64,000 nucleotides of DNA from an uncultured Alphaproteobacteria bacterium (GTDB lineage Bacteria > Pseudomonadota > Alphaproteobacteria > Methylaequorales > Methylaequoraceae). Under the pieces are notes generated by a model, which was not told the origin of the DNA, did not search any database, and saw only the letters and a program-made list of their open reading frames with translations. This document shows positions 2,284 to 22,286 of this stretch, one piece after another. The stretch lies in contig CACEWP010000001.1 in the NCBI GenBank assembly GCA_902563305.1, positions 62,001 through 126,000 of the forward strand, given 5' to 3'. The position numbers and the translations under genes are program-made. Each line of letters opens with the position of its first letter. Within the stretch, counting starts at the first letter, position 1.

Positions 2284-3252
2284 ATGAATAAAAAAATTTT
2301 AGGAATGGGGAATGCAGTTTTGGATATTGTTTCATCCGTTTCAGATGATTTTCTGGCAAGTGCAAATTTAACAAAAGGGGCTATGACATTGGTAGACCAG
2401 AATGTATCTGATAAGATTCTAAAAAAAATTAACCCAATAAAAAAAGATTCTGGTGGGTCAGTAGCAAATACAATAGTGGGAATCTCACTTCTAGGATTAA
2501 ATTCATTTTTCTGTGGAAAAGTCAGAGACGATGAGCTTGGCGACGAATTTATTTCAGATATGGAAAAAACTAAAACTAAATTTCTTTGCAAACAATCCAC
2601 TCAAGGTTTGCCGACTGCAAGATGTATTGTATTCGTTTCGCCAGACGGTGAACGTTCAATGCAAACTTTCTTAGGAGCGAGCACAACTCTTGGGAAAGAG
2701 GATATAAAATCTGACTTTTTTAATGATATAGATTATTTATTAATTGAAGGTTACTTATGGAGTTCAGAAAGCGCAAGAGAGGCAATCTATAAAGCTATCG
2801 AAATTGCGAAGATTAAAAAAATTAAAATTGTTTTTTCACTATCTGATCCAAACTTAGTGAAGATGTACAGGGATGACTTTCTTAAACTATTAAAGTCTGA
2901 GATAAATATTTTAATAGGTAACGAACATGAATTTAAAGAATTATTAGGTAATAACAATTTATTAAATTTTTTAAAAACACAGACAGTTGAAATGTTACTT
3001 AAAACAATGGGTAATAAGGGTGTTGAAGTTGTTGATTCTGAGGGATCTGAAATAATACCTTCATTCCAAGTTGAATCGGTATTAGATACTACAGGAGCTG
3101 GAGATATGTTTGCTGCGGGATTCTTATACAAGTTATTAAAAGGCGAGTCGCCAAAAAAATCTGCTTTATTTGGCTGTAAAGTTGCGTCATTGATCATTCA
3201 GCAATACGGAGCAAGACTAACAGAAGAGACTTTAAGTAATCTAGCTAACTAG
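2284..3252 (+). CDS. PfkB-family sugar/adenosine kinase
   Basis: MNKKILGMGNAVLDIV..., GGSVANT, DTTGAGDMFAAGFLY signature; start moved to ATG 2284. Confidence 0.9.
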   Translation: MNKKILGMGNAVLDIVSSVSDDFLASANLTKGAMTLVDQNVSDKILKKINPIKKDSGGSVANTIVGISLLGLNSFFCGKVRDDELGDEFISDMEKTKTKFLCKQSTQGLPTARCIVFVSPDGERSMQTFLGASTTLGKEDIKSDFFNDIDYLLIEGYLWSSESAREAIYKAIEIAKIKKIKIVFSLSDPNLVKMYRDDFLKLLKSEINILIGNEHEFKELLGNNNLLNFLKTQTVEMLLKTMGNKGVEVVDSEGSEIIPSFQVESVLDTTGAGDMFAAGFLYKLLKGESPKKSALFGCKVASLIIQQYGARLTEETLSNLAN

Positions 3253-3481
3253 TTAAAAAAAAGTTAATTATTCCAAATGCAAAAATTGGTATTTGAAAAC
3301 CAAAATTTGTGAGAATCGCTTTATCTCTTAATAGATAGCCACTAACACTCCAGAATATAACACCTGAGCCATGTAAAAAAATATTTAAAGGATAGTAATT
3401 AAGGTTTGTCAAAAGTATGCCACTTAAGACAAGGATAGTACCTATCCACTTATTTACTTCTGCAACTTTATTCATGAGCAT
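3245..3481 (-). CDS. small membrane protein, uncharacterised
   Basis: 78-aa hydrophobic ORF with several TM segments, in a gap between genes. Confidence 0.5.
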   Translation of the reverse strand: MLMNKVAEVNKWIGTILVLSGILLTNLNYYPLNIFLHGSGVIFWSVSGYLLRDKAILTNFGFQIPIFAFGIINFFLTS

Positions 3482-3522
3482 AACTATTTGCTTTCCTAAA
3501 TTTTTTGAGATTTTTACTGCTT

Positions 3523-5412
3523 CTAAAAATCTATAATCGTTTTTAATTTTCTTAGTACCAAGTTAACAGGAATAGCATTAATATTTGTAGATTTAAAGGT
3601 CTTTTGAGAAGATATTGAAACATGAAGAGGATTACCAATTGGAGCAAACTTTTCAGCACTAGTTGGTCCAAAAAGCGTTAAGGTTGGAGTCCCAGTTGAG
3701 GAAATTAAATGACCACATCCTGTGTCATTACTTATCCCTGCTTTGCAATTTTTTACAATTTTAATTGTTTCCATTGGGTTATTGCTTTTGAAAATTTTTA
3801 TCTTCCCCCCAAACTCTCTAATTAAATTTCTCTCTAGATCAGTTTCTTTTGGACCTAAAATGAAGACTGGAAGAAGATTCCTTCTAATTAAATGTTCTGC
3901 GATATCAATGAAATTTTCAAAGGCCCATCGTTTCCAAATAACCGAAGCACCAGGACAAATAGCAATTTTATTATTATTAACCTTATTGTTAAGATTTGAA
4001 AATTTGACTTTTGAGGGACTGAGAACTTCAGACAAATTTACCAAGTGTTGACTAATATTTTTTTCGTCAGGATTTTCTGGAATTAAATCAGAAAACAAGT
4101 AATTTGCACATGAAGAAACAAAAATTTTAGTTTTAATTTTTTGTAAGATAAGGGTGGTTAAAAATCTTTTTTGAGTATCTATAACAATATCATAAGTTCC
4201 AAATTTATTTTTTTTAAACAAATCAAGAATATTAGAACCAAAATCTTCTTCATAAATATTATCTATGAGGCCTGAAGCAATAGAACTTAGCTCGGTTCTA
4301 AAAATTGAATTTCCTTTTCCTGCTAACCACGTTATTTGTGCATTAGGAAATATTTGTCTAAGACATTTAAGAAGAGGTAGTTTTAACAAAGCATCTCCTA
4401 GTAGATCTAATCCAACATAAACTAAAATTTTTACTTTCGATTTATCCTTTTTTTGGATTTTTCTTATTTCTTCATTGGAAACCCAAGTTCTGAATACCTG
4501 ATAACGAACAACTTTAGGATTAATCCTTGGGTTAACTTTGCTGAAACAATATGTGAGAAGAAATTTATTAAAAAGTTTTTCTTTGTTTACTCTTCTTCTC
4601 CAAGATAAACACCGTGCAACTATCTTTCTTAGCGCCTTCCTTTTCAATGCTTTATTAACAAATGCTGCTTTTTCTAAAAAATTAAGAGTTGCTATTGAGA
4701 GGTCATAAAGGGTTTGAGCATTATTACTCATTATCCTTTCTTTTATGAAAGAAGGTCCAACACATATAATTTTCTCAGTAGAAAAAACATTGAACTTTCT
4801 GGAGGTTTTTGAAATATATTGATTCCCAGCCACACGAAGCGGAAGTGAATAATCTTGAACAAAAACAGTTTCGTCGCAGCCCTTTACCTCCAAAATAGTT
4901 TCGGTTCTAATCATGAGATTGCTCGACCCACCCCAACCATTTACAAGAAACTTTTCGAATGTATTTTGAATTTCTGAGGATTCAGGCTTATTATTTGTGA
5001 AATTATACTTATTAGGATCTGGACTCCAATCCCAATCACCATACAAAAGATCGATATCTTTTTTTTGCATTTGTGATTTCATATATTTCAAACTATCTGG
5101 AGCGAGTATATCGTCGCCATCTAAAAGTTTGATATAAGAGTACTTGACAAACTTAAGAGCATTATTTGTTGCGATACTTGGTCCTGAGTTTTTCTGAGTA
5201 AAAATTTTATAATCTATTTTGCTAGATTTTAGAAAGTCTTTAGCAATTTTATATGAACGGTCTTTGGAACCGTCATCTACAACGATGACTTGATATTTTT
5301 CGGATTCTTCAAATTGATTTGTAGCGGAGTTTAAGGTTTGTAGAATATATTCTTCTTTATTATATAACGTGACAATTATTGATATGCCGTCTTTATATTT
5401 TACTCTTTGCAC
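3523..5412 (-). CDS. two-domain glycosyltransferase: GT2 (N-term) fused to GT9/heptosyltransferase-like (C-term)
   Basis: SIIVTLYNKEEYILQTLNS...VVDDGSKD...LLDGDD (GT2), then ILVYVGLDLLGDALLKLPLL...ICPGAS..KRW...ISNDTGCGHLISSTGTPTLTLFGPT (GT9). Confidence 0.85.
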   Translation of the reverse strand: MQRVKYKDGISIIVTLYNKEEYILQTLNSATNQFEESEKYQVIVVDDGSKDRSYKIAKDFLKSSKIDYKIFTQKNSGPSIATNNALKFVKYSYIKLLDGDDILAPDSLKYMKSQMQKKDIDLLYGDWDWSPDPNKYNFTNNKPESSEIQNTFEKFLVNGWGGSSNLMIRTETILEVKGCDETVFVQDYSLPLRVAGNQYISKTSRKFNVFSTEKIICVGPSFIKERIMSNNAQTLYDLSIATLNFLEKAAFVNKALKRKALRKIVARCLSWRRRVNKEKLFNKFLLTYCFSKVNPRINPKVVRYQVFRTWVSNEEIRKIQKKDKSKVKILVYVGLDLLGDALLKLPLLKCLRQIFPNAQITWLAGKGNSIFRTELSSIASGLIDNIYEEDFGSNILDLFKKNKFGTYDIVIDTQKRFLTTLILQKIKTKIFVSSCANYLFSDLIPENPDEKNISQHLVNLSEVLSPSKVKFSNLNNKVNNNKIAICPGASVIWKRWAFENFIDIAEHLIRRNLLPVFILGPKETDLERNLIREFGGKIKIFKSNNPMETIKIVKNCKAGISNDTGCGHLISSTGTPTLTLFGPTSAEKFAPIGNPLHVSISSQKTFKSTNINAIPVNLVLRKLKTIIDF

Positions 5413-6153: not shown

Positions 6154-6807
6154 TTATTTAAGAGTACCTTGAAGATTATAAATAACTTCTTTTGATATTA
6201 CTTTTGATAGATCTCCAATTCTTTCTAATTCTTTAGCGATAAATAACATTTGTGTACAAAACCCAATAATATCTCTATCTTCCATCATCAAATGTAAATG
6301 CTCTCTAAAACAAGTTTCATACACAGAGTTAATTGTGATATCTTCGGTAGGAACAGATCGTGCAATTTCTTTTGACTCTTGATCATAAGCACTTAGGGCT
6401 GTGGAAAAATTTTTTAAAACTAAAAGGCCAAGTTGGTGAATTGAATCAGTGCTATAGCTATCAGGAGATTTTTTTACTGATAATATCCTTCCAGCCACGT
6501 TGGATGCATGATCACCGATGCGTTCTAGTATACTTGATATTTTCAGAGAAATAATAATCTGCCTAAGATCATCTGCAAGAGGTTGTCTTTTTGACAACGT
6601 AATGGTCGCAAATCCTCTTATTTTTTTTTCTAAAGCATCAATGCCTTTATCATTTTCTATAACTTCATTAGCTTTTGAAATATTGATTATTTTTATCAAG
6701 TCAACTGCTTGGAAGATTTGTTTTTCAACATTCAAACCCATTTTTGTTAAGTTGCTTTTTAGAGAATTTAAATCTTCATCATATGTTGTTACAATATGTT
6801 CTTTCAT
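6154..6807 (-). CDS. phoU: phosphate signalling protein PhoU
   Basis: PhoU repeats (ERIGDHASNVAGR, ELERIGDLSKVIS); position after pstB. Confidence 0.93.
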   Translation of the reverse strand: MKEHIVTTYDEDLNSLKSNLTKMGLNVEKQIFQAVDLIKIINISKANEVIENDKGIDALEKKIRGFATITLSKRQPLADDLRQIIISLKISSILERIGDHASNVAGRILSVKKSPDSYSTDSIHQLGLLVLKNFSTALSAYDQESKEIARSVPTEDITINSVYETCFREHLHLMMEDRDIIGFCTQMLFIAKELERIGDLSKVISKEVIYNLQGTLK

Positions 6808-6810
6808 TTT

Positions 6811-7575
6811 TTAACCTATTTTTCCTGTTATATAATCTTGAGTTTTTTTTTGGCTTGGTGTTGAAAAAATTTGATCTGTGCGCCCTACCTCGATTAAATT
6901 ACCCATATGAAAAAAAGCAGTTTGCTGTGAAACTCTTGCAGCTTGCTGCATAGAGTGAGTAACTATTACAATAGTAAAGTTTTTAACTAACTCATCAATA
7001 AGTTCTTCAATTACAGCAGTTGCTATTGGATCTAGTGCTGAGCAAGGTTCATCCATTAGAATGATTTGTGGACTAATTGCAATGGCTCTGGCTATGCATA
7101 GTCTTTGTTGTTGTCCCCCCGATAAAGAGGTTCCTGAATCATTTAGCCTATCTTTTACCTCTTCAAACAAACCAGCTTTTTTTAAGCTATATATAACTAG
7201 CTCCTCTAATTCATCATCGCTATTAACAATTCCATGAATTTTTGGTCCGTAGGCAACATTATCAAAAATTGACTTAGGGAATGGATTAGGTTTTTGGAAC
7301 ACCATTCCTATCTTTGCCCTAAGTAAAACCGGGTCGACTTCTGTGGAATATATATCTTCTTCATCAACAATAATTTTTCCTTCTATCCTACAAATATCAA
7401 TCGTATCATTCATACGATTTATACATCTAAGAAAAGTAGATTTTCCACAACCACTTGGACCTATTAAGGCTGTGACCTTATTTGTAGGAATTTCAAGATT
7501 GATTTTATCAAGTGCTTTCTTCTGGCCATAGTAAACATTAACATTTTTACTTTTTATTTTAATTTTTTCTGTCAT
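6811..7575 (-). CDS. pstB: phosphate ABC transporter ATPase PstB
   Basis: Walker [10 protein letters not shown], signature [28 protein letters not shown]. Confidence 0.96.
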
Positions 7576-17904: not shown

Positions 17905-17926
17905 AGTGTTACAGTTTTATGACAAA
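17905..17926 (-). promoter_or_regulatory. Pho box upstream of gap-arsJ-ppk-ppx
   Basis: Minus strand TTTGTCATAAAACTGTAACACT; 11-bp-spaced half-sites; same consensus as the pstS and porin boxes. Confidence 0.8.
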
Positions 17927-17951: not shown

Positions 17952-17988
17952 ATGTCATCTTACGTAAAAGTGTTACGTAAGGTGACAT
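17952..17988 (-). terminator. 16-bp stem, 5-nt loop inverted repeat (ATGTCATCTTACGTAA-aagtg-TTACGTAAGGTGACAT); putative terminator or attenuator
   Basis: Near-perfect inverted repeat (one G/T mismatch) between the end of the Lys-rich gene and the gap promoter; short T-rich tract follows on the minus strand. Confidence 0.5.
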
Positions 17989-18000
17989 ATTATATTTTAT

Positions 18001-18618
18001 TTATTTTGTTGTCTCAGGTTTTTCTTCTGATGAAGGAGAGGTGATATCCGTTTTTATGTTTATATTTTGAGTAGAAACTTTATCTAAGCTCCCATTTGAT
18101 TTTGTTAAATCAATTTTTTTTGTTTTTGACTTATTTTTGACAGTGGACTGAGAAGTTTTTGTAGTTTTTTTATCACTTTTTTTAAGTCGAGCTTTTAACT
18201 TTTTATTGTTACTTTTTAATTTTTTAATAACTTTTTTAGGTTTATTAAGTTTAGATTCTAATTTCTTATTATCCTTTTTTAATTTACTAACGTTTTTATT
18301 AGGTTTCTTAAGTTTGGATTCTAACTTTTTATTAACCCTTTTTAATTTACTAACCTTTTTTTTAGGTTTTTTGAATTTAATTATTTTAGCTTTTAAATTT
18401 TTATTTTTCTTTTTTAAAACCTGAATTTCTTTTTTTTGATCAGATTTTTTTTTCGCACCTTCAATTGCTAAACACCCTAATTTTACAATTTTTGGTAGCT
18501 TTTTAGATTTACTCATTTTTTTAAGACTTAAACCTGTTAAGCGAGAAAATTTCTTATTAGAAATCTTATTTTTTTTCCCCCATCTTTTAAGCTGAGTTGG
18601 TTTTTTAAGTGGTTGCAT
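18001..18618 (-). CDS. Lys-rich protein: degenerate XRE/HTH-like N-terminus plus 21-aa coiled-coil repeats and charged tail
   Basis: ATG 18618 preceded by strong SD (AAAAGGAGGAATTAAA). N-terminus QLKRWGKKNKISNKKFSRLTGLSLKKM..KLPKIVKLGCLAIEGAKKK aligns with the XRE protein at 19223; repeats K(P)xxxVSKLKxxNKKLESKLx. Confidence 0.7.
   Translation of the reverse strand: MQPLKKPTQLKRWGKKNKISNKKFSRLTGLSLKKMSKSKKLPKIVKLGCLAIEGAKKKSDQKKEIQVLKKKNKNLKAKIIKFKKPKKKVSKLKRVNKKLESKLKKPNKNVSKLKKDNKKLESKLNKPKKVIKKLKSNNKKLKARLKKSDKKTTKTSQSTVKNKSKTKKIDLTKSNGSLDKVSTQNINIKTDITSPSSEEKPETTK
18178..18369 (-). repeat. three tandem 63-nt (21-aa, three-heptad) coding repeats
   Basis: KPKKKVSKLKRVNKKLESKLK / KPNKNVSKLKKDNKKLESKLN / KPKKVIKKLKSNNKKLKARLK. 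Confidence 0.8.
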
Positions 18619-18681
18619 TTTAATTCCTCCTTTTAACTTTACATTTATGCATTGCAATTCCTGGGAACAGCATATACAAAT

Positions 18682-18700
18682 ATACGCAATTATTGCATGT
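18682..18700. promoter_or_regulatory. palindromic site 1: ATACGCAATTATTGCATGT
   Basis: Perfect GCAAT-T-ATTGC core; 63 bp before the ATG of the Lys-rich gene; matches sites 2 and 3. Confidence 0.65.
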
Positions 18701-18706
18701 TGTCAA

Positions 18707-19015
18707 TTATTTAAAGCTTTTGTTGTTTGTTGTATTTTCTGTTAATTTTTGTTTAAGGGACTCTAAATCCTGATCTAACTTATAGTGTGACCAATCACTA
18801 AAAGACAAACAAACGGAATATTTCTTTTTTAAAATATTGTTATTTTCTTTTATGTTTGAAGCGCTTTTAAGTTGGCCGTTAATTATCTCAGACATAAACC
18901 TACAAGAATTCTGAGTATTATATGTTTCTGTGGTAGTTTTACTTACGTCTGTTACAAAGCCGTCAGAATCATAAAGAGGGCCAAAAAACGTTACAAAAAC
19001 AATAACCCAAGTCAT
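18707..19015 (-). CDS. small ORF with N-terminal signal/anchor-like segment, uncharacterised
   Basis: 102-aa ORF MTWVIVFVTFFGPLYDSDGF..., two Cys; lies between palindromes 1 and 2; no family recognised. Confidence 0.5.
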   Translation of the reverse strand: MTWVIVFVTFFGPLYDSDGFVTDVSKTTTETYNTQNSCRFMSEIINGQLKSASNIKENNNILKKKYSVCLSFSDWSHYKLDQDLESLKQKLTENTTNNKSFK

Positions 19016-19110
19016 TTTCTTTTCGTTTGGTTGTCTAAGCTTCTTTTTTTAAAAACAAAGTCCCAATATAGCAAATGTCCATACATATATAATCTCCTAA
19101 GCAGTTATCC

Positions 19111-19129
19111 ACACGCAACTATTGCGCGT
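19111..19129. promoter_or_regulatory. palindromic site 2: ACACGCAACTATTGCGCGT
   Basis: Same core as sites 1 and 3; exactly 30 bp from site 3. Confidence 0.65.
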
Positions 19130-19140
19130 TTATTATAAAT

Positions 19141-19159
19141 ATACGCACTGATTGCGCAT
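19141..19159. promoter_or_regulatory. palindromic site 3: ATACGCACTGATTGCGCAT
   Basis: Same core; 63 bp before the likely ATG (19223) of the XRE regulator. Confidence 0.65.
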
Positions 19160-19222
19160 ATGTCAATATTATTTTGTAATAATTTTTTTTTTTTGGTATT
19201 AATACTTACTTTCTTAAAGTCT

Positions 19223-19426
19223 ATGGAAAAAGAACAGTTCAAAAAATGGAGAAAAAAGAATGGTTTTTCTCAAGCAGAGGCTGCTAATGTACTTGGCCTA
19301 AAAAGGAGAATGATCCAGTATTATGAGAAGGGTAAAAAAGGAGAAAAAGATATAAAAATACCCAAATATATAAAATTAGCATGTGAAGCGATAGAACTTA
19401 AGAAAAAGTTAAAGAAACTGGTTTAA
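19223..19426 (+). CDS. XRE-family HTH transcriptional regulator (67 aa)
   Basis: MEKEQFKKWRKKNGFSQAEAANVLGLKRRMIQYYEKGKKGEKDIKIPKYIKLACEAIE; HTH. ATG 19223 preferred over 19160, which would abut the palindrome. Confidence 0.85.
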   Translation: MEKEQFKKWRKKNGFSQAEAANVLGLKRRMIQYYEKGKKGEKDIKIPKYIKLACEAIELKKKLKKLV

Positions 19427-19445
19427 TTTTAAAAGGAGTAAACTT

Positions 19446-19991
19446 ATGAGCGATAATTTTGACATCAAAGTTGGTGAGTCACTAATTGCTGGAGGACCAC
19501 CAGGAACAGCAGCTGAGCCGGAAGTAGTTATCGGAAAATTTAACGGCCCATTTGGAACAGCTTTCGCCACCTTACTAGGCAATCAAGTTAAAGGACATAC
19601 AAAAGTTCTTGCGATAATGAACACAGACGTAATGGTTAGGCCAGCAACATTAATGGTGAGCAAGGTCACTGTCAAAGACGACAGATATACCAATATTTTA
19701 ATGGGAACAGTTCAAGGAGCTATTGCTAATGGTGTGTTAGATTCCGTTAGAGAGGGTTATATTCCAAAGAAAATAGTTAATGATGTAGGCATTATTGTAT
19801 CAGTTTGGTTGAATCCAAGTGTAGCTGAAGACAAAAATTTAGATCACAAAATACTTTTTGATATTCATCGTAAGGCGACCACGAGTGCAATAAAGAAAGC
19901 AATGAAGGACGAGCCATCGATAGATTGGCTTTTAGAAAACCAAGATAAAATTGTTCATAAATACTTTGAAAAAGCATTAGATTCCAAGTAA
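19446..19991 (+). CDS. formaldehyde-activating enzyme (Fae) family protein
   Basis: KVGESLIAGGPPGTAAEPEVVIGKFNGPFGTAFATLL...MVRPATLMVSKVTVKD...GTVQGAIANGVLDSV follows the Fae pattern; SD AAAAGGAGTAAACTT; 19 nt after the XRE gene. Confidence 0.85.
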   Translation: MSDNFDIKVGESLIAGGPPGTAAEPEVVIGKFNGPFGTAFATLLGNQVKGHTKVLAIMNTDVMVRPATLMVSKVTVKDDRYTNILMGTVQGAIANGVLDSVREGYIPKKIVNDVGIIVSVWLNPSVAEDKNLDHKILFDIHRKATTSAIKKAMKDEPSIDWLLENQDKIVHKYFEKALDSK

Positions 19992-19992
19992 C

Positions 19993-20082
19993 AGTGTATA
20001 TGCACATAAGATAGATTTCTAATGGATTTTAGGCGTTCTTTTAAATTAACCTGCAATTTCACATAAATAGTGCATATACACT
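19993..20082. repeat. 13-bp perfect inverted repeat AGTGTATATGCAC ... GTGCATATACACT with 64-nt spacer
   Basis: Arms at 19993-20005 and 20070-20082, in the convergent gap between fae and the GT4-DgkA gene. Confidence 0.75.
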
Positions 20083-21475
20083 AAAAAAATCTCTTCAATA
20101 TGGATACATAAGTAACAAACACAAAAACAAGTGAGCAAAGAACAGCTGCACTGCCTAAATCTTTGGCTCTTTTTGAAAGGTCGTGATGTGAAAAAGAAAT
20201 TCTGTCAATGGTGGCTTCAATGCTTGAATTAAGTAATTCAATTATGAGTAAAAGCATAATACTTCCAATCATGAGAAGTTTTTCTGTAGTCTCGGTTGGA
20301 AATATAAAAGCAAGAGGGATTAATATCAAAGTGAGAAGTAGTTCTTGTCTGAAAGCACTCTCCTCCTTAAAAGCAAATATAAATCCTGAGAGACTATTTA
20401 TTAAAGCAAAATATAATCTCCTCAACCCAGTATTCTTTTTATGTGGATTCTCTTTAAAGACATATGTTTTTGGATCCCTTTTTTTTGAATTTTGTAGATT
20501 AGATTCAAAGATATTGACAACATTCTCCCAGGTGAATTTTTTTACATAATGTAAAGGTTTGTTGGCCGGTATTTTTAATGCATTTAAACACGCTATTTTA
20601 AGATTTTTATTTAGAACCCCTGCTCCACTTTTTCCAATAACATTGATTGGGCCTGCAACTGGAAATGCGGCTACTGGTAATCCGCATGCCATAGCTTCTA
20701 GTAATACTAGCCCGAAAGTATCGGTTTTGCTTGGAAAAACGAATAAATCTGCTTTTCCATAGTATTCATGTAATTCATGTTGTTTTTTTTCACCAAAAAA
20801 TTTGACATTTGGATATTTTTTTTCGAGTTTGCGTCTATCAGGACCATCACCTACAATCCATTTTTCACAGTCGAGATCTAATTTTAAAAACGCTTCTAAG
20901 TTTTTTTCAATAGCAACTCTTCCTATGTTTATCAAAATAGGTTTGCCATTTTTCTTTTTTTGCAAAGGGGGTTTGAAAAGCTTAAAATCAACACCTCGTG
21001 GCCATATTGTAGTATTATGTATATTCCACTTTTTTAAATCTTCTATTACTGATTTTGTAGGAACAAGTATTTTATGTGCTTTACTATGAAACCATTTTAG
21101 ATAACCATAACCTATAAAAAGAGGAACTTTAGTTCTCTTATATATATATTCCGCAAATTTTGTATGAAATGAAGTTGTATAAACAAGTCCATTTTTTACC
21201 ACATAATTTCTTCCTGCTAAACCTAGTGGACCCTCAGTTGCAATATGAATCGCATCTGGATTGAATTCTTTAATTAACTTTTTAACTTTGTTCCCTGGAA
21301 AAAAAGATAACCGGATTTCAGGGTAAGTAGGACAAGGAAATGTTTTAAACAGATCAGGTGTTATCATTAAAACATTATGACCTTTTTTTTCTAAAAGTTC
21401 TTTTGTTTTAGATAACGTATGGACCACTCCATTAACTTGAGGGTGCCAGGCATCTGAGATAATTACTATTTTCAT
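20081..21475 (-). CDS. GT4 glycosyltransferase (Agt-like) fused to a C-terminal prokaryotic diacylglycerol kinase (DgkA) domain
   Basis: MKIVIISDAWHPQVNGVVHTL...GRVAIEKNLEAFL...DTFGLVLLEAMACGLPV (GT4), then EESAFRQELLL...ELLNSSIEATIDRIS..HHDLSKRAKDLGSAAV (DgkA, about 20084-20452). Confidence 0.88.
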   Translation of the reverse strand: MKIVIISDAWHPQVNGVVHTLSKTKELLEKKGHNVLMITPDLFKTFPCPTYPEIRLSFFPGNKVKKLIKEFNPDAIHIATEGPLGLAGRNYVVKNGLVYTTSFHTKFAEYIYKRTKVPLFIGYGYLKWFHSKAHKILVPTKSVIEDLKKWNIHNTTIWPRGVDFKLFKPPLQKKKNGKPILINIGRVAIEKNLEAFLKLDLDCEKWIVGDGPDRRKLEKKYPNVKFFGEKKQHELHEYYGKADLFVFPSKTDTFGLVLLEAMACGLPVAAFPVAGPINVIGKSGAGVLNKNLKIACLNALKIPANKPLHYVKKFTWENVVNIFESNLQNSKKRDPKTYVFKENPHKKNTGLRRLYFALINSLSGFIFAFKEESAFRQELLLTLILIPLAFIFPTETTEKLLMIGSIMLLLIIELLNSSIEATIDRISFSHHDLSKRAKDLGSAAVLCSLVFVFVTYVSILKRFF

Positions 21476-21485
21476 AACTAGGAAA

Positions 21486-22286
21486 TTAAGTTTTTTGTGG
21501 GAGCTGAAAGTGACTTGAATGCTCTTGAGAAATTCTAGATGACCAGTCAACAATCTCTAGATTACCATCGATATGTTCTACAATTGCGGTCATAGACTCT
21601 ACCCAATCACCGCTATTACAATATATTATATCATGAATTGATTTGAATTCTGCTTTGTGTATATGCCCACAAACAACACCATCAAACCCTCTTCTTTTTG
21701 CCTCCTTAGTCATTACTAATTCATAGGCAGTAATAAATGAAACAGCTTTTTTTACCTTTTGTTTAATAAACTTTGATAATGACCAGTAAGGTAGCTTTAA
21801 AAATTGTCTAATATTATTAAATAGATTGTTTAAGCGGATTAACATAGCATAACACTTGTCACCAACATATGCGAGCCAACGAGCATGTCTAATAACGCTA
21901 TCAAATTGATCTCCATGAATGATCCATAATTTCTTACCCTTGAGAGTGGTATGGTGAGCTTCCTTTTCAATTATTATATCTCCGAAATTCACACCAATAT
22001 ATTTACGCGCAGCTTCATCATGGTTACCTGGTATAAATACAACTTTTACTCCTTTCCTAGCTTTTCTTAGTAATTTTTGGATAACATCATTGTGAGCTTG
22101 TGGCCAATACCATTTTTTCTTCAATCGCCATCCATCGATAATGTCTCCTACAAGAAAAATTTTTTCGGACTTTGAAACTTTAAGAAACTCTAAAAGAAGT
22201 TCTGCTTTGCAACCGCTTGTACCTAGATGAACATCTGAAATCCATATTGTTCTGTAACGATTATGTTTAAAGGATACGCCATCCAT
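21486..22286 (-). CDS. plcP: metallophosphoesterase, PlcP-like phospholipase C (LpxH-like fold)
   Basis: WISDVHLGTSGCKAELLLEFLK, GDIIDGWRL, GNHDE, CGHIHKAE; adjacency to Agt-like GT4 supports PlcP over LpxH. Confidence 0.82.
   Translation of the reverse strand: MDGVSFKHNRYRTIWISDVHLGTSGCKAELLLEFLKVSKSEKIFLVGDIIDGWRLKKKWYWPQAHNDVIQKLLRKARKGVKVVFIPGNHDEAARKYIGVNFGDIIIEKEAHHTTLKGKKLWIIHGDQFDSVIRHARWLAYVGDKCYAMLIRLNNLFNNIRQFLKLPYWSLSKFIKQKVKKAVSFITAYELVMTKEAKRRGFDGVVCGHIHKAEFKSIHDIIYCNSGDWVESMTAIVEHIDGNLEIVDWSSRISQEHSSHFQLPQKT

Follow-up and report, generated by a model that had tools for sequence, protein, structure and literature searches.

A putative autoregulated XRE module with a lysine-rich XRE paralogue in the phosphate/polyphosphate island of Methylaequorales

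Aca proteins act on strong promoters, which they repress by way of inverted repeats located in the promoter core (PMC9410906), and AlgP, an H1-like lysine-rich protein, associates with and spaces polyphosphate granules and also associates with DNA (PMC9239181). Flexible phosphate genomic islands (fGIp) were described in HIMB59 (PMC10734472), and sensing or regulatory roles have been proposed for fae-like proteins (PMC3728764). The reference SAG for the order TMED127 (Methylaequorales), a methylotroph, is AG-892-F10; its hypothetical proteins CDS.256 and CDS.257 (34% lysine) exceeded 1e4 TPM in Sargasso Sea surface water at BATS (PMC12542740). Both are found only in TMED127, belong to the small set of its genes that exceed 10,000 TPM and, unlike xoxF5, showed no diel pattern (PMC12542740).

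The window, a 64,000-nucleotide stretch of an uncultured alphaproteobacterial contig, was compared with a family sample of 32 genomes, most of them incomplete; genome-wide statements are based on searches of genomes and of selected stretches. The genes of the module and its flanking hairpin are as follows.

17952-17988: terminator-like hairpin of 16 pairs, 3' of the lysine-rich gene
18001-18618, minus: lysine-rich protein, 205 aa, 34% lysine (XRE homology, AF2, composition)
18707-19015, minus: small protein, 102 aa, predicted beta-beta-alpha-beta (alignment, AF2)
19012-19086, minus: micro ORF, 24 aa, MYGHLLYWDFVFKKRSLDNQTKRK (conserved motif and ribosome site; ATGA overlap with the small ORF)
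19223-19426, plus: XRE single-domain HTH regulator, 67 aa, putative autorepressor (Pfam HTH_3, Aca1 profile matches)
19446-19991, plus: Fae-family paralogue without the presumed catalytic His (Pfam Fae, NCBIfam one_C_fae, alignment)

This layout agrees with the initial annotation, which had placed an XRE and a Fae-family gene 19 nt apart on the plus strand (both with Pfam matches) and a small ORF and a lysine-rich ORF divergently on the minus strand. The window ORFs also bear out its description of the block as an interruption of a minus-strand phosphate locus. The conserved 24-codon ORF at 19012-19086 had been overlooked in that first reading. Between the convergent fae and glycosyltransferase-diacylglycerol kinase (GT-DAGK) genes lies a perfect 13-bp inverted repeat with no T-run, AGTGTATATGCAC, at 19993-20005 and 20070-20082; similar GTGTATATACAC elements were seen 3' of fae in several genera, whether the XRE module was there or not. 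The repeat is local, and its assignment to an interspersed repeat family was unsupported.

The XRE protein matched Pfam HTH_3 (E 4.6e-8), and its profile matched NE0471 (2auw; E 1.4e-7) and the Aca1 chains 7c0g, 7vjn and 7fa3 at E 1.4e-4 to 1.6e-4, which denotes superfamily-level kinship only. Homologues were present in genera 1, 2, 7, 8, 9 and 10. Given the mode of action of Aca proteins (PMC9410906) and the profile match to Aca1, the XRE protein would be expected to repress all three promoters of the module, listed here with their putative operators.

18679-18706, minus: lysine-rich gene promoter, sigma-70-type, TTGACA-16-TATATT, 11/12 consensus
18684-18698: putative operator O3, ACGCAATTATTGCAT, in the spacer of the lysine-rich gene promoter
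19105-19113, plus: TTATCCACA, a perfect DnaA-box sequence beside O1, kept in genera 1, 7, 8 and 10
19108-19136, plus: putative XRE-fae promoter, TCCACA-17-TATTAT, 9/12, weaker than the minus-strand pair
19113-19127: putative operator O1, ACGCAACTATTGCGC, in the spacer of the putative XRE-fae promoter
19138-19166, minus: micro/small promoter, sigma-70-type, TTGACA-17-TATATT, 11/12 consensus
19143-19157: putative operator O2, ACGCACTGATTGCGC, in the spacer of the micro/small promoter

The three 15-bp cores, already recorded as near-identical palindromes, follow the pattern ACGCAA-N3-TTGCGY, and the two minus-strand promoters are the best sigma-70-like promoters of the region. The TTATCCACA sequence may be a piece of the XRE promoter -35 region or a DnaA-box-like site. 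O1, O2 and O3 were the only sites in the window with at most one mismatch; at two mismatches or fewer, eight sites were seen against a shuffle mean of 3.4 (maximum 12), and the palindrome count by itself is only modestly above chance. The palindromes are convincing because they lie inside consensus promoters and recur in five genera. A similar promoter-plus-operator plan was found in genera 1, 2, 7, 8 and 10 of TMED127/Methylaequorales, where most minus-strand promoters had TTGACA with an operator in the spacer and TCCACA preceded O1. The micro/small promoter followed this plan in genera 8 (11/12) and 2 (9/12), the lysine-rich gene promoter in genera 7, 8 and 10 (TTGACA-16-TATTAT or TACAAT), and the XRE-fae promoter in genus 7 and another genus 1 genome (TCCACA-16/17-TATAAT). 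Exceptions were the degenerate sites of genus 10 and the micro/small promoter of genus 7, which was missed by the scan.

Sites with at most one mismatch in the 1.34-Mb genome comprised O1-O3 and two others, both within coding sequences, and this genome-wide pattern search found no near-perfect operator at C1 genes, canonical fae included. A genome-wide XRE regulon was rejected because near-perfect sites, apart from those two, are confined to the module. Overlap of promoters with operators, together with the local distribution of sites, is a signature of local autoregulation at the level of sequence. The proposed self-regulation of the module through a single common operator is supported at this level: each of the three units has a site within its promoter, and several genera show the plan.

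The explanation that we favor, and judge probable, is an auto-repressed module specific to TMED127/Methylaequorales and set in a phosphate/polyphosphate island, with an Aca-like XRE protein and an abundant, XRE-derived, lysine-rich polycation. A small XRE dimer would bind the palindrome between the -35 and -10 elements of the three divergent promoters and shut XRE-fae, micro-small and lysine-rich units together. Once repression was relieved, the small and lysine-rich proteins would be made in very large amounts from the near-consensus minus-strand promoters. The lysine-rich protein would be an XRE duplicate in which the C-terminal helix, expected to mediate dimerisation, persisted, most of the recognition helix disappeared and a polycationic coiled-coil tail was acquired; as a plentiful protein it would most likely serve to bind nucleic acid and/or polyphosphate. 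The Fae paralogue, without the catalytic His, would be a downstream passenger. Two observations count against this explanation. Genus 2 keeps XRE and the small protein yet has no lysine-rich protein, and more than 1e4 TPM for two products would be unexpected in a repressed module unless the inducing state prevails. As judged by the high transcript level, repression may be weak in phosphate-poor surface water.

The expression data concern the closest named relative of the window, SAG AG-892-F10 (L052). Its lysine-rich protein contains 34.1% lysine, whereas every other ORF on the 320-kb contig has 24% or less; the ORF index is 235-248 by a crude caller, and the small ORF lies directly upstream on the same strand. 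From lysine content and gene order, rather than accession, this pair is most likely CDS.256 and CDS.257, and the small and lysine-rich proteins of the window are most likely their respective homologues. Published text taken with this match in composition and gene order indicates that the lysine-rich gene is very probably among the most strongly transcribed of these cells at sea. In a dominant methylotroph of the ocean, one of an abundant methanol-consuming group, two of the most transcribed genes, context-free hypothetical proteins in a 2025 paper, are thereby very probably placed. The home supplied for them consists of promoters, a candidate repressor with operators, a putative origin of the lysine-rich protein by repressor duplication, and a location in a phosphate/polyphosphate island. 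A testable question arises from this placement, that of DNA or polyphosphate management in phosphate-starved ocean cells.

The lysine-rich gene starts at ATG 18618 with ribosome site AAAAGGAGG, and compared with this start the upstream TTG 18657 is unlikely. Its N-terminus aligned with the XRE protein (hhalign E 1.9e-6, 41% identity, 49 columns), in keeping with the kinship seen earlier, and derivation from XRE by duplication is the best explanation of the similarity. The alignment gap covers MIQYYEKGK, the recognition-helix segment, and helix IPKYIKLACEAIE is kept; in a single-sequence AF2 model the third helix is short (32-36) and a long helix begins at 43. The XRE-like N-terminus with its truncated recognition helix is followed by lysine-rich coiled-coil repeats and a conserved C-terminal NGSLDKVSTQNINIKTDIT, which is 90-95% identical between genera, compared to 68-76% for the N-terminus. 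Neither the HTH nor the C-terminal part had a relative outside the family among 289 class genomes. One class-wide match, in G233, was an MreC coiled coil beside MreB, a match of composition and not a homologue. KPAA repeats are absent, and Pfam and NCBIfam gave no AlgP-type match.

Binding of DNA, RNA or polyphosphate is the probable role of the lysine-rich protein, which as a polycation is possibly a polyphosphate or nucleoid protein. In the main rival explanation it is chiefly an anti-repressor that forms heterodimers with XRE through the kept C-terminal helix, takes XRE off the operators and so creates a bistable switch. Loss of the recognition-helix segment with retention of the IPKxIxLxCxAIE helix, a pattern identical in three genera, is what an anti-repressor would show, and such a role could coexist with polyanion binding. 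However, the conserved C-terminal motif and the long lysine-rich tail would be left unexplained, and genus 2 has XRE and the small protein without the protein that would counter repression, so that we regard this role as possible but rather doubtful. It is unlikely that the protein represents a new polyphosphate/nucleoid-condensing class that evolved from its own repressor and, in its free form, titrates XRE via heterodimers, so that its supply would be matched to how much polyphosphate or DNA is there to bind it. If true, each gene of such a polyanion-buffered feedback loop would account for over 1% of transcripts in ocean cells starved of phosphate.

The other two minus-strand ORFs are closely coupled, the stop of the micro ORF overlapping the start of the small ORF (ATGA). 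The motif MxGHxxxWxxVxK and the ribosome site are kept in the micro ORF of genera 1, 7, 8 and 10, and the genus 2 counterpart has 12 aa, MSYFYFWKSFWF. Synonymous changes are not dominant in its first 13 codons, so the coding status of the micro ORF rests on the conserved motif, the ribosome site and the overlap. The small protein has two conserved Cys in the alignment. Its AF2 model, of modest confidence (mean pLDDT 67), is a beta-beta-alpha-beta fold in which the hydrophobic N-terminus forms the first strand, a better prediction than the anchored product first suggested. The small protein had no homologue outside the family among 289 class genomes, and a fold search returned no PDB match below E 0.39.

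XRE and the small protein occurred together in part of genus 1 and in genera 2, 7, 8 and 10. The lysine-rich, small and micro genes are divergent from XRE-fae in genera 1, 7, 8 and 10, but in genus 2 XRE lies beyond fae on the opposite strand and the lysine-rich gene is absent. Genus 9 has XRE/lysine-rich remnants beside tRNA-Ser, far from Fae, and only the XRE 3' end is left ahead of fae in genera 6 and 12, the genus 12 contig having Ns and possibly being a mosaic. Fae without XRE was found in genera 3, 4 and 5 and in other genomes of genera 1 and 8, mostly divergent from pstS and adjacent to the porin O/P gene. Its presence without XRE in several genera suggests fae as the earlier occupant of the locus, with the XRE module as a variable addition. 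Truncated lysine-rich/XRE copies beside tRNA-Ser(gga) in another genus (L132 of G020, 6594-7222; L133 of G027, 3200-3893) are 83-94% identical to the window and probably stem from a recent transfer, with two distinct deletions afterwards. Another genus has, beside an 80% identical fae, a piece of GAPDH that matches the window at 98% identity (L023/L144, G015:C8), from either phosphate-locus recombination or an assembly mosaic.

Gain and loss with remnants, including the genus 9 copies beside tRNA-Ser, would also suit descent from a phage or mobile element, domesticated as an acr-aca-like or toxin-antitoxin-like locus and retained for defence or by chance, as would the Aca-like XRE protein and the weak resemblance of the small-protein model to small phage proteins (E 0.008-0.05). 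Such a history is improbable given that searches of 2.9 million viral contigs with three queries (XRE, small and lysine-rich proteins) found no relative, that PADLOC and PHROG gave generic HTH or coiled-coil matches and no further family, that expression in situ is very high, and that the module holds the same phosphate-island place in at least three genera. Viral origin via close homology and identity as a defence system were both rejected on these searches. A toxin partner for a type II toxin-antitoxin system was not recognisable either, the small and lysine-rich proteins having no toxin family in Pfam, NCBIfam, PADLOC or PHROG; Fae is not known as a toxin.

The window Fae matched Pfam Fae (PF08714; E 6.7e-59) and scored 134 bits against NCBIfam one_C_fae (TIGR03126), above the cut-off, compared to 255 bits for the canonical copy. 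The alignment places AAEPEV where the canonical protein has VAHIDL, with Glu instead of the His that structural work on Fae identifies as catalytic. AAEPE recurs in all aligned close homologues, which come from Hyphomicrobiaceae, Methyloceanibacter and Methylobacterium (61-77% identity), and M. extorquens Fae has VAHID. The canonical Fae with the His present is encoded at G000:C1:267472, within a C1 gene cluster recognized by gene content. A tie to C1/formaldehyde sensing had been suggested for the locus, whereby XRE would respond to formaldehyde or a C1 intermediate and Fae would be sensor or effector. The XRE-Fae operon of genera 1, 7, 8 and 10 and the methylotrophic lifestyle (PMC12542740) are compatible with this suggestion, and the roles proposed for fae-like proteins (PMC3728764) make a regulatory role for the window paralogue possible. 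The change of His to Glu, the canonical Fae elsewhere in its C1 cluster, C1 genes without a near-perfect operator, the separation of Fae and XRE in several genera and CDS.256/257 expression without the xoxF5 diel pattern (PMC12542740) nevertheless make C1 sensing very unlikely, and nothing here ties XRE to formaldehyde. The paralogue seems to have been in the phosphate locus for a long time and to have turned into a downstream passenger of XRE.

The island around the module contains pstS, pstC, pstA, pstB, phoU, phoB, phoR, sixA, ppx, ppk, MFS, GAPDH, fae, a porin O/P gene, the GT-DAGK fusion and an LpxH/PlcP-like phosphoesterase, the names of the pst, pho, sixA and ppx genes being taken from sequences and synteny. 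The block is missing from the equivalent place in L059-L061 and L142. The fusion and the LpxH-like gene (20081-21553 and 21486-22286, minus) resemble PlcP/Agt, a pair that remodels lipids when phosphate is scarce; genus 8 (L139) has two separate genes in place of the fusion. A Pho-box-like TGTTACAGTTTTATGACA lies at 17907-17924, ahead of the GAPDH-MFS-PPK-PPX operon, and similar boxes occur in the pstS-fae gap of relatives and, in genus 2, as an array between XRE and the micro ORF.

PPK was found in 16 of the 32 genomes. It was present in 12 of the 14 that carry the module (truncated by a contig end in some of them) and in 4 of the 18 that lack it, three of those four bearing remnants. When remnants are counted with the module, the figures are 15/18 vs. 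1/14. Fisher p values were 0.001 (module) and 4e-5 (module or remnant), uncorrected for relatedness or linkage; PPK and module are physically linked in genera 1, 7 and 8, and relatedness also confounds the association. Linkage cannot explain the whole association since PPK is not near the module in genera 2 and 9; one genus 2 genome has a PPK with stops.

The module resembles Aca systems, notably Aca1, in its small single-domain HTH protein, its putative operators in strong sigma-70 core promoters and its proposed local autoregulation. In contrast to Aca systems, it is chromosomal, has divergent genes instead of acr upstream of aca in one operon, and has no known acr; it also has three promoters rather than one, with the lysine-rich paralogue of the repressor predicted to be under the repressor's own control. 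Small HTH homology and an inverted repeat in the core promoter are present and a position downstream of acr is not; as XRE is the first gene and its partners are divergent, the system is not filed as Aca. AlgP is the nearest functional analogue of the lysine-rich protein. Like AlgP/PhaF, that protein has a helical N-terminus and a long Lys/Pro-containing repetitive tail, a likeness of composition rather than homology, and its gene lies near ppk-ppx; it differs in the coiled-coil-like KPKK...KLK tail in place of KPAA and the XRE-HTH-derived N-terminus, and granule binding is putative. The window Fae belongs to the same sequence family as the Fae enzyme but, with Glu for the catalytic His, groups with His-less paralogues of Methylobacterium, Hyphomicrobiaceae and others. 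The island holds pst/pho genes with ppk, ppx, sixA, DGK, LpxH-like and glycosyltransferase genes in one variable block, and thus belongs with the fGIp of HIMB59, with which it shares pstSCAB, phoU, phoR/phoB and these genes (PMC10734472); to that set the TMED127 island adds the XRE/micro/small/lysine-rich module and the Fae paralogue.
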